NCBI RefSeq assembly: GCF_903642285.1
Contig: NZ_CAHJWJ010000001.1
Span: 62,001-126,000, forward strand
Length of the DNA stretch: 64,000 nucleotides
Source: Sphingomonas bacterium
GTDB lineage: Bacteria; Pseudomonadota; Alphaproteobacteria; Sphingomonadales; Sphingomonadaceae
Direction of reading: 5' to 3'
The notes under the pieces are model-generated. The model saw only the letters and a list, made by a program, of their open reading frames with translations. It ran no database searches and was not told the DNA's origin. Every line of letters starts with the position of its first letter. The stretch's first letter is position 1. Shown one piece after another: positions 45,769-58,965 of this stretch. The position numbers and the translations under genes were made by a program.

Positions 45769-45845
45769 CTCCTGCGAAAGTGGGAGCCCAGGGTTATGCC
45801 GGACATCGCATGCGGCTCCTGGACCCCCGCGTTCGCGGGGGAACG
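45769..45845. repeat. REP-like element, copy C (within the mltA reading frame)
   Basis: Contains a perfect hairpin CCCCCGCG-TT-CGCGGGGG (45824-45841) and an imperfect CTCC/GGAG arm at 45774-45786 facing it, the two-hairpin plan of the other copies. The region is open in the mltA frame, where it reads SWTPAFAGERQ, the kind of peptide produced when this class of repeat is translated. Confidence 0.75.
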
Positions 45846-49487: not shown

Positions 49488-49673
49488 CTATCGCAGCTTC
49501 GCGATGTTCAGCCCGTCTTCCTTCGCACGGTCCTTCGTCGACTCCTCGCTGCGTTTCAGCGCCTTCGCGATCGCCTTCAGTGCCATGCCTTTCCTAGCAA
49601 ACTGGTGCAGCTTCTGGATCTCGTCCGTCGTCCAGGGTTGCCGGTGGCGCTCGAATACCTCGCCCTTCGCCAT
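49488..49673 (-). CDS. small helix-turn-helix-like protein
   Basis: 61 residues: MAKGEVFERHRQPWTTDEIQ, then HQFARKGMALKAIAKALKRS and a basic end. The WTTDE start and the ALKAIAKALKRS helix resemble Myb/SANT or GcrA-like DNA-binding modules. ATG 49673 shares its A with the stop of the MAPEG gene (TGATG), giving tight coupling. A DNA-binding role is an inference from composition. Confidence 0.6.
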   Translation of the reverse strand: MAKGEVFERHRQPWTTDEIQKLHQFARKGMALKAIAKALKRSEESTKDRAKEDGLNIAKLR

Positions 49674-50113
49674 CAGAACACCATCAGTGCGGCATGGAAG
49701 GTCAGCACCACCAGCGCCGCGCTGGACGCGATGAACAGGACGAAGCGCCATAGTACGCGGTTGATCGTCGCCTGAACGATGCTGTGAGCGATCCGCAGGC
49801 CGACATAGATCCAGGCGACTCCGGCGTTGATCCCGCTCCCCCAACCGCCGATCGCGAGCACCAGCGCGACGGCGTAGAACAGCGTCGGCTGCTCCATCAG
49901 ATGATTGTAATTATGCGCCTTCCACTGCGCCGTCGCGGGCAGGCTCCGATCGGCGTCGCTCGCCTTGCTGCCGACCAGCGTGGCGAGATCGGCACCTGCC
50001 CGGCGCATTGCGGGCAAGCGGGTCGCAAGCATCCAAGCGAGCATGACGAGCGTCCAGGCGATCAGGACGATAACGGGTTTCGGGATGTCGGCATGCGCGA
50101 CGGCGGGGATCAT
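49673..50113 (-). CDS. MAPEG-family membrane protein
   Basis: 146 residues with four hydrophobic helices, starting with PKPVIVLIAWTLVMLAWMLA. MAPEG hallmarks are the HNYNHLMEQPTLFYAVALVL motif and a late GLRIAHSIVQATIN. Such proteins act on glutathione or lipid substrates; activity here is unknown. Overlaps the upstream secreted-protein gene by four bases. Confidence 0.88.
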   Translation of the reverse strand: MIPAVAHADIPKPVIVLIAWTLVMLAWMLATRLPAMRRAGADLATLVGSKASDADRSLPATAQWKAHNYNHLMEQPTLFYAVALVLAIGGWGSGINAGVAWIYVGLRIAHSIVQATINRVLWRFVLFIASSAALVVLTFHAALMVF

Positions 50114-50673
50114 TGACTGGTCCTGATCTGATGGACGAAGCGCATGTTCACGCGCGTCGAGCCCGCGGCGCGCTTGGCCGGATCGGTAATATGCTGGTCG
50201 AACACGAACAGCGATTCCTCGCCGCCGCCGGGCAGGTCGCGTCGCTCGCCGATGGCATGCACGTGGATCTCGCCGCGGTCGGCGTCATAGGGATTGATCG
50301 CGGTGAAATCGGAGTGCGCCTTCTCGAAAGGGTCGGCCACCGCGTGGTAAGCGGACAGGTCGGCAAACCCGGCCACCATGAACCGCCGGACCGAACAGGC
50401 ATGGAAAGGCGGCAGTTCGAGGAACACCAGCATCTCTTCGTCGCCGTCCTTGACGCTCCAGCCCCGGCCCGGATCGTCGACGAGCGTTACCTTTACTTGC
50501 GCTGGGGTCAGCGGCGTCGCGCCGCGCGCGGCCATCGCCTTGTCGACCGCCGCGTCGATCGGGAAGGCCTGCAGGCAGACCTCGTCGTAGAGCGCGACCA
50601 TGCGCTGTTCGACGGGGTCGGGGGCAGGGGCCATTTGCGCGGCCAGCAACGCGGCGAACGTCAGCATCGGCAT
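50110..50673 (-). CDS. secreted hypothetical protein
   Basis: 187 residues with an N-terminal signal-like segment (MPMLTFAALLAAQMAPA). Two Cys (DEVCLQAFP and FHACSVRRF) could pair. No family is recognised with confidence. Long range of polar beta-rich sequence: VDDPGRGWSVKDGDEEMLVF and ESLFVFDQHITDPAKR. First of the group with MAPEG (ATGA overlap) and the small HTH-like gene. Confidence 0.6.
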   Translation of the reverse strand: MPMLTFAALLAAQMAPAPDPVEQRMVALYDEVCLQAFPIDAAVDKAMAARGATPLTPAQVKVTLVDDPGRGWSVKDGDEEMLVFLELPPFHACSVRRFMVAGFADLSAYHAVADPFEKAHSDFTAINPYDADRGEIHVHAIGERRDLPGGGEESLFVFDQHITDPAKRAAGSTRVNMRFVHQIRTSQ

Positions 50674-50745: not shown

Positions 50746-51795
50746 TCAGTCGAACATCTTGCCCCAGGCGCGCTTGGCGCGGTCCTTCCAGTGGCCGCGG
50801 TGATAGGCGTCGCTCGCCAGCAGCGGCATCACCGATCCGGCCTCGGCGAACACCATCTGCTCGATACCGGTGTTGACCTTGCCCCAGCTTGCCGCCTCCT
50901 GCAGCGTCGAGGACGAGCAGGCGCCGTCGCGGACGTCGGCGACGGTGATCTGCACCGCATATTTGTGCACCTGCACATCGTCGTGACCAAGGATTTCCGC
51001 GCAGACGACGGTGTCCTGGATGAAGTTCTTCGGCACGCCGCCGCCGATCATCAGCAGGCCGGTCGTGCCCGCCTTGATCTTGATGTCGGTCAGTTCGCGG
51101 AAATCGGCGATCGCGTCGAGGACCATATAGGGCTTGCCCTCTTTCGCGCGGTCGACCTGGTGCTTTACCAGCCCGAACCCTGCCGACGAATCGACGAACG
51201 CCGGGCAGAAGATCGGCACGTCGTGCTCATACGCCAGCTTGACGAGGCTGTTGTCCTTCTTGCCGTGCTCGACCAGATATCTGCCCATCTCGCGAATGAA
51301 GGCACGGCTCGAATAGGGCTTTGGTTCGAGGGAATTGGCGATCTCGTAGATCGTGTGGTCGCAGTCCTGCAACTGCTCCTCGTCGATATAGGTGTCGTAG
51401 ATGCGGTCTATGAGCAGCGAGCGCAGCGTGTCGTCGTCGGGCACTTCGAGCGCCTGATAATGTTTGTGGCCGAGCCCTTCGAAGAAATCCATGTCGACGA
51501 TCGATGCGCCCGTGGCGACGATGCCGTCGACCATGTTGTTGCGCAGCAGCTCGGCATACAGGTCCATGCATCCGCCCGCGGACGTGCTGCCCGCGATGAC
51601 CAGGAAGATCGTGCAATCGGGATCCGCCAGCATCTGGTTGTAGATCGCGGTCGCGCGGCCGAGGTCGCGGCTGGTGAACGACATCTTCTTCATGGCGTCC
51701 ACGATCGGCCGCGCATCGAAGCTGGTGATATCGATATGCTCGACCGTGGTGGAGAGTAATTCCGCCTTGCGGTTGGAGAGGGTCGTGTCGGTCAT
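50746..51795 (-). CDS. deoxyhypusine-synthase-like polyamine enzyme
   Basis: 349 residues of the DHS fold: an NAD site around LVIAGSTSAGGCMDLYAELL, EGKPYMVLDAIADFRELTD, and the active-site Lys306 in EAASWGKVNTG, equivalent to the human catalytic lysine. Bacteria lack the eIF5A hypusine target; bacterial homologues instead transfer an aminobutyl group to make homospermidine-like polyamines. Lies downstream of a type III ornithine decarboxylase, which would supply putrescine. A REP-like element separates the two genes. Confidence 0.8.
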   Translation of the reverse strand: MTDTTLSNRKAELLSTTVEHIDITSFDARPIVDAMKKMSFTSRDLGRATAIYNQMLADPDCTIFLVIAGSTSAGGCMDLYAELLRNNMVDGIVATGASIVDMDFFEGLGHKHYQALEVPDDDTLRSLLIDRIYDTYIDEEQLQDCDHTIYEIANSLEPKPYSSRAFIREMGRYLVEHGKKDNSLVKLAYEHDVPIFCPAFVDSSAGFGLVKHQVDRAKEGKPYMVLDAIADFRELTDIKIKAGTTGLLMIGGGVPKNFIQDTVVCAEILGHDDVQVHKYAVQITVADVRDGACSSSTLQEAASWGKVNTGIEQMVFAEAGSVMPLLASDAYHRGHWKDRAKRAWGKMFD

Positions 51796-51807
51796 GTCTA
51801 ACTCCTA

Positions 51808-51897
51808 AAGCGCAGCCGTTCCCCGGCGAACGCCGGGGTCCAGGGTCGCAAGCGATGCGCTGCGTGGCTCTTGGTTCCGGCTTTCGTCGGAACACGG
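51808..51897. repeat. REP-like element, copy D
   Basis: Hairpins CCCCGGCG-AA-CGCCGGGG (51821-51838) and GTTCCGGC-TTT-CGTCGGAAC (51874-51893, one mismatch), with a 35-base spacer. Fills most of the gap between the decarboxylase and the DHS-like gene. Confidence 0.75.
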
Positions 51898-51918
51898 GTT
51901 ATGAATTGCGCGCGTCTA

Positions 51919-53139
51919 TTACAGCGTGACGACGTTCGTCGCGACTTCCCGGAAGACATCGCCGTACAACGACACCATCGGCTCGTCTGCGACCACGACG
52001 GTCTCGTCGCAGCCGAAGCCGTTGAATGCGGTACGCATCGCCGTGCCGTACGCGCCGAGCATGCCGATCTCGATATAGTCGCCCGCCTGAACGTCCGCGG
52101 GTAGCAGGAACGGTCCCGCCATATGGTCCATATCGTCGCATGTCGGGCCGTAGAAGCTGAACGCCATGTCGCGTGCCCGGCTGTCGGGTTCGCGCATCAG
52201 TTCGACGGGAAAGCGCCAGCCGAGATGCGCCGCGTCGAACAATGCGCCGTACGCGCCGTCGTTGATGTACAGCTCCGCCCCGCGGCGACGCTCCACGCGC
52301 ACCACGATCGAGCTGTATTCCGCGCACAGCGCCCGGCCCGGCTCGCACCACAGTTCGGACGAATAGCTGACGGGCAGCGATTCGAACGCGCGGTGGATCG
52401 CGTCGAAATAGCGCTCCAGCGGCGGCGGCTCCATGCCGGGATAGCTCGACGGGAAGCCGCCGCCGACATCGATCACGTCGACCATGACCGCCGCCTCGAC
52501 GATCGCCGCACGGACCCGCTCCAGCGCGCCGGTATAGGCCTCGGGCGTCATCGCCTGCGATCCGACATGGAAGCAGATGCCGAGCGCATCCGCCGCCTGC
52601 CGGGCCGCGAAGAGCAATGCCTTGGTCTCGCCCGGAGCCGCACCGAATTTCGAGGCGAGGCTGAGCTTGGAATGTTCGGACGACACGCGCAGGCGCACGC
52701 ACAATGTCAGGTCGGTCGCTTCGCCGGTCGCGCGGACGATCTTCTTCAGCTCTTCCATGCTGTCGAGACTGAACGTGCGCACGCCGTGCGTGAAATACGC
52801 CTCGGCGATCGCTTCCTCGGCCTTGACCGGGTGCATGAAGCAGAGCGTAGCCTCGGGCAGCGTGCGCGCGACGAGCCGCACCTCGGCGATCGAGGCGACG
52901 TCGTAATGCGTGATGCCGCTGTCCCACAGGATCCGCAGCAGGTCCGGCGAGGGATTCGCCTTCACCGCATACATCGACCGGCCCGGGAACTTCTCCGCGA
53001 AGAACCGGGCGGCCCTGGCGGCCGCATGCGGACGAACCAGCGTCACCGGATTGACCGGACGCTGCCGAGCGATATCGAAACCCGTGAAGGCGTTCGAAGG
53101 GGTGCTTGCTAACCCCAGCGCGCGATGATGGTTGTGCAA
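51919..53139 (-). CDS. type III PLP-dependent ornithine/lysine decarboxylase
   Basis: 406 residues from TTG 53139 (HNHHRALGLAS), with GGAGG nine bases upstream; a GTG at 53181 would add 14 residues. Alanine-racemase-fold decarboxylase: PLP-Lys in SMYAVKANPSPDLLRIL, VKAEEAIAEAYFTHG, HVGSQAMTPEAY, DVGGGFPSSYPGM, EPGRALCAEYSS, and the catalytic-Cys region FYGPTCDDMDHM. Produces putrescine (or cadaverine) for polyamine synthesis with the DHS-like enzyme downstream. Confidence 0.92.
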   Translation of the reverse strand: MHNHHRALGLASTPSNAFTGFDIARQRPVNPVTLVRPHAAARAARFFAEKFPGRSMYAVKANPSPDLLRILWDSGITHYDVASIAEVRLVARTLPEATLCFMHPVKAEEAIAEAYFTHGVRTFSLDSMEELKKIVRATGEATDLTLCVRLRVSSEHSKLSLASKFGAAPGETKALLFAARQAADALGICFHVGSQAMTPEAYTGALERVRAAIVEAAVMVDVIDVGGGFPSSYPGMEPPPLERYFDAIHRAFESLPVSYSSELWCEPGRALCAEYSSIVVRVERRRGAELYINDGAYGALFDAAHLGWRFPVELMREPDSRARDMAFSFYGPTCDDMDHMAGPFLLPADVQAGDYIEIGMLGAYGTAMRTAFNGFGCDETVVVADEPMVSLYGDVFREVATNVVTL

Positions 53140-53276
53140 TTCAAGGGACCTCCAATGTCCGTAGACAAGTTCACGAAACACTGCCTTGCGGTTGGAAGTC
53201 CCATGGGGCAGCGAGGGTGTGATTTAGGGTCGCATGCCCCCCCTGTAAAGTGATTGATTGCGCAAGGAGACGGGAT
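53140..53276 (-). promoter_or_regulatory. leader of the type III decarboxylase gene, candidate speF-type RNA
   Basis: 137-base region upstream of the decarboxylase, bounded by the divergent dehydratase gene. It ends in a strong GGAGG. A frame continuous with the decarboxylase reads FRELVYGHWRSLE just before the TTG. Alphaproteobacterial decarboxylases of this kind are known to be preceded by the conserved speF RNA motif; a structural match is not demonstrated here. A GATTGATTGCGC and a CATGC-rich stretch are also seen. Confidence 0.35.
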
Positions 53277-58866: not shown

Positions 58867-58872
58867 GCGCGC

Positions 58873-58960
58873 GGGAGTCGGGCGGGCGTGGTCGTCGCCA
58901 ACTCGGTCAGGTCCGGAAGGAAGCAGCCGCAACGATTCCGCCACGGGTCGTCCGGCTCCC
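58873..58960 (+). ncRNA. ffs: bacterial signal recognition particle RNA (4.5S, small type)
   Basis: Contains the invariant SRP domain IV core GGTCAGGTCCGGAAGGAAGC followed by AGCC (58905-58928). Arms GGGAGTCGGGCG (58873-58884) and the 3' GTCGTCCGGCTCCC (58947-58960) pair to close a single hairpin of about 88 bases, as expected for the short bacterial form. Binds Ffh for co-translational membrane targeting. Next to dnaX, as in many bacteria. Confidence 0.92.
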
Positions 58961-58965
58961 ACCGC

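Follow-up and report, generated by a model that had tools for sequence, protein, structure and literature searches.

An odc1-type leader before a probable arginine decarboxylase gene and a deoxyhypusine synthase homologue in Sphingomonas

We analysed a window of 64,000 nucleotides from a Sphingomonas genome (RefSeq assembly GCF_903642285.1, contig NZ_CAHJWJ010000001.1, positions 62,001 to 126,000), in which a gene for a fold-type III decarboxylase that requires pyridoxal phosphate (PLP) is preceded by a structured RNA leader of the odc1 type and followed by a gene for a homologue of deoxyhypusine synthase (DHS). A sequence-only reading of the window had described a DHS-like protein with catalytic Lys306 behind an alanine-racemase-fold decarboxylase, and profile searches bear this out (Table 1), the lysine of the SWGK motif being residue 306. 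Both genes lie on the minus strand, with a spacer of 123 nt. The decarboxylase frame is open up to a GTG at 53181, and the TTG at 53139-53137 is its start. The GGAGG pointed out in the same reading is indeed there, at 53153-53149, 9 nt before this TTG and inside the right arm of the extended helix P1 of the leader. Gene content, conservation, pseudoknot covariation, and selection on the stop codon of an upstream open reading frame (uORF) together make it likely that this is an arginine-to-homospermidine operon under translational control, for which we propose substrates, product, ligand, and direction of switching.

Table 1. Features of the decarboxylase-DHS locus, in window coordinates
Feature	Position	Strand	Basis or remark
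odc1-type leader RNA element	53135-53218	-	covariance model R1, 89.6 bits
Pseudoknot arms GCTGCC (53212-53207) and GGCAG (53185-53181)	53181-53212	-	two-sided changes at 3 of 6 helix pairs, 75 sequences
P1, GGGACTTCC (53202-53194) with GGAGGTCCC (53153-53145), the latter containing the Shine-Dalgarno sequence	53145-53202	-	minimum free energy fold
11-codon uORF, TTG start, LNCTTIIARWG then TAG	53109-53144	-	overlaps main start out of frame
Fold-type III (alanine-racemase-fold) PLP decarboxylase	51919-53139	-	406 aa, TTG start; PF02784 and PF00278 profile matches
DHS homologue, SpeY/CdmS-like	50746-51795	-	349 aa; PF01916, 292 bits
NMCC_0638-type (lipo)protein, possible operon member	50110-50673	-	28.9 bits, cut-off 28
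MAPEG protein (pfam01124), fourth gene	49673-50113	-	profile match
Putative promoter, TTTACA (53249-53244), 17 nt, TAAATC (53226-53221)	53221-53249	-	inferred from sequence

Across relatives, the block 5′ of the decarboxylase gene reads GCTGCC-CCATGGGACTTCC-(A)nCCGCAA-GGCAGC, an optional hairpin, and GGAGGTCCC-TTG-AN-TTG, conserved at the nucleotide level, and its 5′ end GCTGCC forms a pseudoknot with the loop GGCAGC. The minimum free energy fold of P1 has a z of -2.45, and P1 cells are 98.4% paired across the 54 leaders from which the covariance model was built here; the window itself is one of these 54 training rows, which bears on its own match (E 4.6e-20). The sequence-only reading had taken an in-frame stretch encoding FRELVYGHWRSLE for a uORF. 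Although the stretch does read open and in frame, it lies within the leader RNA, and the same conserved DNA is read in all three frames across relatives; the leader is therefore conserved as RNA and not as protein, and we rejected FRELVYGHWRSLE as a conserved peptide. Scanned against Rfam 15, the element gives no family match in the window. In its anatomy it agrees with the odc1 motif (uORF-25-1), which was published in 2021 with an unidentified ligand (PMC8632094), when set against the published text description rather than base by base. That text describes a ribosome site in P1, a pseudoknot, two UUG starts 2 nt apart, and an 11-residue uORF, all of which the window shares, with P1 masking the ribosome site. 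Decarboxylase and pfam01124 genes lie downstream in both, although the discoverers put the pfam01124 type among the first three downstream genes and the MAPEG gene of the window is the fourth. The reporter representative of odc1 likewise came from a sphingomonad, Sphingomonas echinoides (PMC8632094). In five loci (L255, L265, L272, L289, and L299) odc1 varies in structure: in place of the CCAWGGG seen in others, these elements have additional sequence or a 5′ half that has diverged.

The leader recurs in relatives almost without exception. Of 106 Sphingomonadaceae loci, 105 have it 5′ of the decarboxylase gene (30 of 30, and 75 of 76 in a later set, L232-L307, which overlaps the training genomes in part; some of the tested loci were training rows), among them the loci of two 2.1-Mb, 47% GC genomes that are Zymomonas-like in these traits (L300 and L306). 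Loci from titled records, taken as the best 80 of 571 relatives, all carry it too, one of them being cut at its 5′ end. Placement of the decarboxylase left out 13 genomes in all (G002, G007, G008, G023, G032, G040, G052, G060, G064, G068, G074, G096, and G115), and G041 was added. Outside the family, none of 60 other alphaproteobacterial decarboxylase loci has the element at E ≤ 0.01, one match being at chance level (0.64). The leader that the sequence-only reading had drawn at 137 bases is thus real, but its transcribed part is probably about 75 nt, since a TTTACA-N17-TAAATC box, as read from the sequence, ends just upstream. Such a box (TTTACA-N16-18-TA) precedes 51 of the 100 elements placeable by script, and a strict consensus promoter scan found no promoter at the window leader.

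Core-helix covariation was not found among the 54 near relatives, where the core varies too little for the test. In 75 more distant matches, aligned to the model's own P1, four pairs change on both sides, three of them in the pseudoknot, and 0 of 500 shuffles reach four. Partners slid by two columns also give four two-sided pairs on these matches, so that the paired cells (98.2% against 39-63% when slid) and the covariation score (0.106 against at most 0.052) separate better.

The two TTG starts in the window are 5 nt apart, with 2 nt between them, and the pair is TTG/TTG in 104 of the 106 genomes, the exceptions being one ATG/ATG and one GTG/TTG. The uORF is 11 codons long in 104 of the 106, against 9 and 22 codons in the other two, and its stop covers decarboxylase codons 10-11. 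The first of these, codon 10, is taken by a rare NTA codon in 101 of the 106 genomes, and NTA makes up 2.7% of Leu/Val codons over the remainder of the gene; at each of codons 2-9 and 11-13 it occurs in 0 of 106, and at codons 14-26 in 0-2 of 106, save codon 20 with 12. Synonymous resampling (200 trials) places a stop at that position in a mean of 7.1 genomes and a maximum of 14, against the 104 of 106 observed. ARWG-type endings of the peptide are shared by the window and its close relatives; in many of the 106 genomes the peptide ends quite differently, and the N-terminus of the enzyme itself also varies across them. On this comparison, selection seems to keep the position of the uORF stop and not the peptide. 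As far as the published text goes, the NTA codon and the constant uORF length add to the description of odc1 (PMC8632094); that text rates most positions of the uORF peptide as highly conserved, whereas its second half diverges in the 106 genomes here. According to the same text, conserved-base changes abolish the main start, and two of three barely affect the uORF start.

To judge from its relatives and from the genes that accompany it, the decarboxylase probably acts on arginine and not on ornithine. We built a tree of 75 decarboxylases, of which 15 are sphingomonad rows and the remaining 60 come from a sample of 250 genomes of the class (midpoint root; L048, with an internal stop, was excluded from the alignment). 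Every one of the 15 sphingomonad rows falls in a 35-row clade with a support of 98 in the Shimodaira-Hasegawa-like approximate likelihood ratio test, as does each of the 11 DHS-linked rows, and 9 other rows complete it. Two of its members, L106 and L109, are 394-aa enzymes from 1.2-Mb, 30% GC genomes that appear to be Pelagibacter-like, and their loci hold decarboxylase, DHS, and ureohydrolase genes. Published decarboxylases from Pelagibacter and Fonsibacter, 394 and 396 aa long, are active on arginine and not on ornithine or lysine (PMC9992855), and the SpeY clusters described in that text combine a decarboxylase and a DHS homologue with an arginase/agmatinase or with a deiminase and an amidase. 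Provided that L106 and L109 come from Pelagibacter-like genomes, as they appear to, those enzymes fall in the same clade as the sphingomonad ones; unlike the window, the loci L106, L109, and L112 gave no odc1 leader match. The 11 DHS-linked loci contain a ureohydrolase in eight cases and a deiminase with an amidase in two, and in one the contig ends. Six of seven ureohydrolases scanned (of the eight) pass the NCBI agmatinase cut-off; that of L106, read from an internal ATG, came out short, at 165.6 against a cut-off of 174.3.

The genomes of the family point the same way. Among 119 Sphingomonadaceae genomes, agmatine deiminase (PF04371) is present in 116, the SpeA marker PF17810 above cut-off in none, the SpeD family in 7, a ureohydrolase (PF00491) above cut-off in 33, and an Orn/Lys/Arg decarboxylase of the aspartate aminotransferase (AAT) fold above cut-off in two. 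In the source genome, an N-carbamoylputrescine amidase gene lies 363 nt downstream of the deiminase gene (427.6 bits, cut-off 410). The source-genome deiminase (L087:4333-5370) is divergent even though its amidase partner passes the cut-off, and it might prefer another guanidino substrate. The arginine-to-homospermidine route is not new as a hypothesis, since it was proposed in 2021 for Zymomonas mobilis, from ZMO1020-ZMO1019 together with ZMO1369/ZMO1370 (PMC8594446). The gene set and the proposed route are the same as in the window, as a hypothesis only; no leader is discussed in the text available from that paper, whereas the window gene has an odc1 leader. In Z. mobilis, the decarboxylase dropped 64-fold upon the switch to nitrogen fixation, and its correlation with arginine was negative (PMC8594446).

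The reading of the two genes as a homospermidine-type pair, which the sequence-only reading had suggested, is supported. A DHS gene occurs in 54 of the 119 family genomes and a strong PF16653 match, taken as CASDH, in 61; no genome has both and four have neither (Fisher p 1.4e-29, uncorrected for phylogeny). Weak PF16653 matches in three DHS-positive genomes (67-70 bits, where the 61 have at least 140) were left out of the CASDH count. In 48 of the 61 CASDH-type genomes no more than 10 kb separates the match from the decarboxylase, in 4 the match is elsewhere, and in 9 the decarboxylase is unplaced. Two genes of one CASDH-type genome best match carboxynorspermidine synthase and decarboxylase, at 434 against a cut-off of 800 and 377 against 409; because both fall below the NCBI cut-offs, the role of CASDH-type genes in making spermidine is a presumed one. 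The two states require five changes on a decarboxylase tree, with two of them forced by well-supported branches, and they differ even inside the genus of the window (G000 against G091). The loci from titled records, again as the best 80 of 571, comprise 70 of the DHS type, 9 of the CASDH type, and one that ends too early. Polyamine type, homospermidine or spermidine, is a trait used in classifying sphingomonads. Sphingomonas cavernae and S. baiyangensis are examples of CASDH-type species. Sphingomonas yantingensis (L216) is of the CASDH type as well, and the title of a 2017 paper reportedly names spermidine as the major polyamine together with an emended description of this species; the emendation would concern its polyamines. 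In Z. mobilis, which has the DHS homologue, homospermidine has been reported as the major polyamine (PMC8594446). The odc1 leader is present in loci of both types, and its ligand should therefore be made or used by both.

In the pathway that we propose, the decarboxylase would convert arginine to agmatine, and the guanidine group would be stripped by two enzymes whose genes lie at another place in the genome, the agmatine deiminase and the N-carbamoylputrescine amidase. The DHS homologue would join two four-carbon amines through a lysine imine to give homospermidine, and guanidine removal and coupling could come in either order. The odc1 leader would mask the ribosome site in P1 with its pseudoknot, and once it opens, ribosomes would pick between the two UUG starts, translating either the enzyme or an 11-codon dead-end frame. 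We hold more tentatively, and as less probable than the operon itself, that odc1 is a start-site selector guarding the entry of arginine into polyamines, with an arginine decarboxylase as its target, arginine, agmatine, or a shared polyamine as its ligand, a uORF that acts by its end position, and an exchangeable triamine module. The rare codon of the enzyme would then be kept so that ribosomes starting 5 nt early exit after 11 codons, whatever the peptide, and the module below the switch would swap between DHS for homospermidine and CASDH/CASDC for spermidine.

Several observations weigh against an arginine-fed operon under such a switch. The source-genome deiminase falls under the NCBI curated cut-off (228 against 382), and one of the two AAT-fold decarboxylases of the family is in this very genome (PF01276, 165.6 bits; G000:C6:18830-19732, L150), where it adjoins a gene for an amino-acid-permease-like membrane protein and could be an alternative source of agmatine. 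Of the 40 decarboxylases that fall outside the clade, 6 also have a ureohydrolase gene in their loci, best matching agmatinase in the four loci scanned and passing a cut-off in three of them, and the deiminase is found genome-wide with decarboxylases on both sides of the tree (74 of 250 class genomes). Neither ureohydrolase nor deiminase therefore proves the substrate, and we rejected genome-wide deiminase presence as a class-wide discriminator. SpeA is above cut-off in 8 of the 250 alphaproteobacterial genomes, none of them among the 74 with deiminase, so that deiminase without SpeA is not peculiar to Sphingomonadaceae. No assay on a sphingomonad version of either enzyme, the decarboxylase or the DHS homologue, is reported in the available text of the cited literature. 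In the E. coli reporter of odc1, both starts were used, the uORF start was about threefold stronger than the main one in both media, and no ligand effect is shown in that text (PMC8632094). Finally, the genomes are related, and the stop counts, uncorrected for phylogeny, stand for fewer independent events than 106. A further candidate marker of arginine decarboxylases, the LFDA motif of the specificity helix, was weakened as well, as agmatinase-like genes are likewise found near LSDA/LADA-type enzymes that fall outside the clade.

The discoverers of odc1 name the downstream gene an ornithine decarboxylase (PMC8632094), and the evidence here favours arginine. Were their annotation right, a true ornithine decarboxylase would supply putrescine for the DHS homologue to condense to homospermidine, and odc1 would sense ornithine or putrescine. 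The best solved relatives of the decarboxylase are lysine/ornithine decarboxylases, its orthologues also adjoin CASDH/CASDC-type genes, whose pathway starts from putrescine, and no ureohydrolase was found in the source genome, all of which fits. We nevertheless consider an ornithine decarboxylase unlikely, given the near-universal deiminase without a SpeA marker in the family, the clade shared with Pelagibacter-like enzymes, and the anticorrelation of the Z. mobilis enzyme with arginine (PMC8594446). It is somewhat less improbable that the DHS homologue acts on agmatine itself, in the manner of caldomycin synthase CdmS of Thermus (PMC10981699), which agrees with the pathway proposed above save in the order of steps. 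The homologue passes NCBI model NF002699 (559.8 bits, cut-off 500), named after the agmatine-coupling product, its gene adjoins that of the decarboxylase, and six of the seven active-site residues named in the published text agree by number offset without an alignment (S70, E139, D146, F207, E300, and K306 in the window for S67, E136, D143, F204, E293, and K299). By the same offset reasoning, however, C293 stands where CdmS has L286, and a ureohydrolase is used in Thermus, whereas none was found in the source genome or in 34 of the 54 DHS genomes. The deiminase, moreover, shows no preference for either genome type, being present in 53 of 54 with DHS and in 60 of 61 with a CASDH-type gene, so that plain putrescine supply fits.

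That the DHS homologue modifies a protein, like true deoxyhypusine synthase, is very improbable. The fold and the catalytic lysine are the same, but the operon with a decarboxylase and the mutual exclusion with a CASDH-type gene point to small-molecule synthesis, and the protein stays far under all deoxyhypusine synthase cut-offs (273.7 against 434, 212.8 against 364, and 201.2 against 304). As for the leader, the sequence-only reading had expected RNA- or uORF-based control of the speF kind; both RNA and uORF are found, in odc1 form, but the speF kind is not. The speF RNA (RF00518, PMC1273637) also precedes a COG0019 decarboxylase, the same kind of downstream gene, and is described in the available text as longer and differently structured. 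We rejected it as having a negligible chance, RF00518 being unmatched in the window (E ≤ 10 over 551 nt, and at the gathering threshold over its whole length) and in eight relatives (E ≤ 5). None of 55 of the 60 class loci scanned at the gathering threshold matched RF00518 either (L119, L120, L137, L138, and L139 were left out), so that speF is unusable there as a marker of true ornithine decarboxylases.

The favoured arginine-to-homospermidine operon thus pairs a known leader with a known kind of operon, to which our analysis adds evidence that the target is probably an arginine decarboxylase and that selection keeps the stop of the uORF and not its peptide. Going by these comparisons, the target enzyme of odc1 may have been misidentified, and so, in consequence, may its trigger. 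Should the gene product convert arginine to agmatine, trials confined to compounds of the ornithine pathway would miss the ligand, and arginine, agmatine, and homospermidine would be the first ligands to consider. The exclusive pattern of DHS and CASDH offers a gene-level account of homospermidine versus spermidine among sphingomonads, and, given the result on the uORF stop, a single codon could separate "peptide" from "position" models. A search of open-licence literature (titles and starts of abstracts) found, among the matches listed, none linking odc1 with arginine decarboxylase and the term "odc1 motif" only in the original paper; nothing there joined deoxyhypusine synthase, homospermidine, and Sphingomonas.

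A GC-rich palindromic repeat, CTGGACCCCGGCGTTCGCCGGGG, resembling repetitive extragenic palindromes, occurs in two copies that differ by two mismatches, at 51821-51843 (minus strand) and 45819-45841 (plus strand). The former sits within the spacer between the decarboxylase and DHS genes, where it could affect operon read-through or mRNA decay. Directly 3′ of another member of the decarboxylase clade lies an alphaproteobacterial (permuted) transfer-messenger RNA (L096:6174-6526). The window also encodes a bacterial small signal recognition particle RNA (RF00169, 58 bits) at 58871-58965 on the plus strand.

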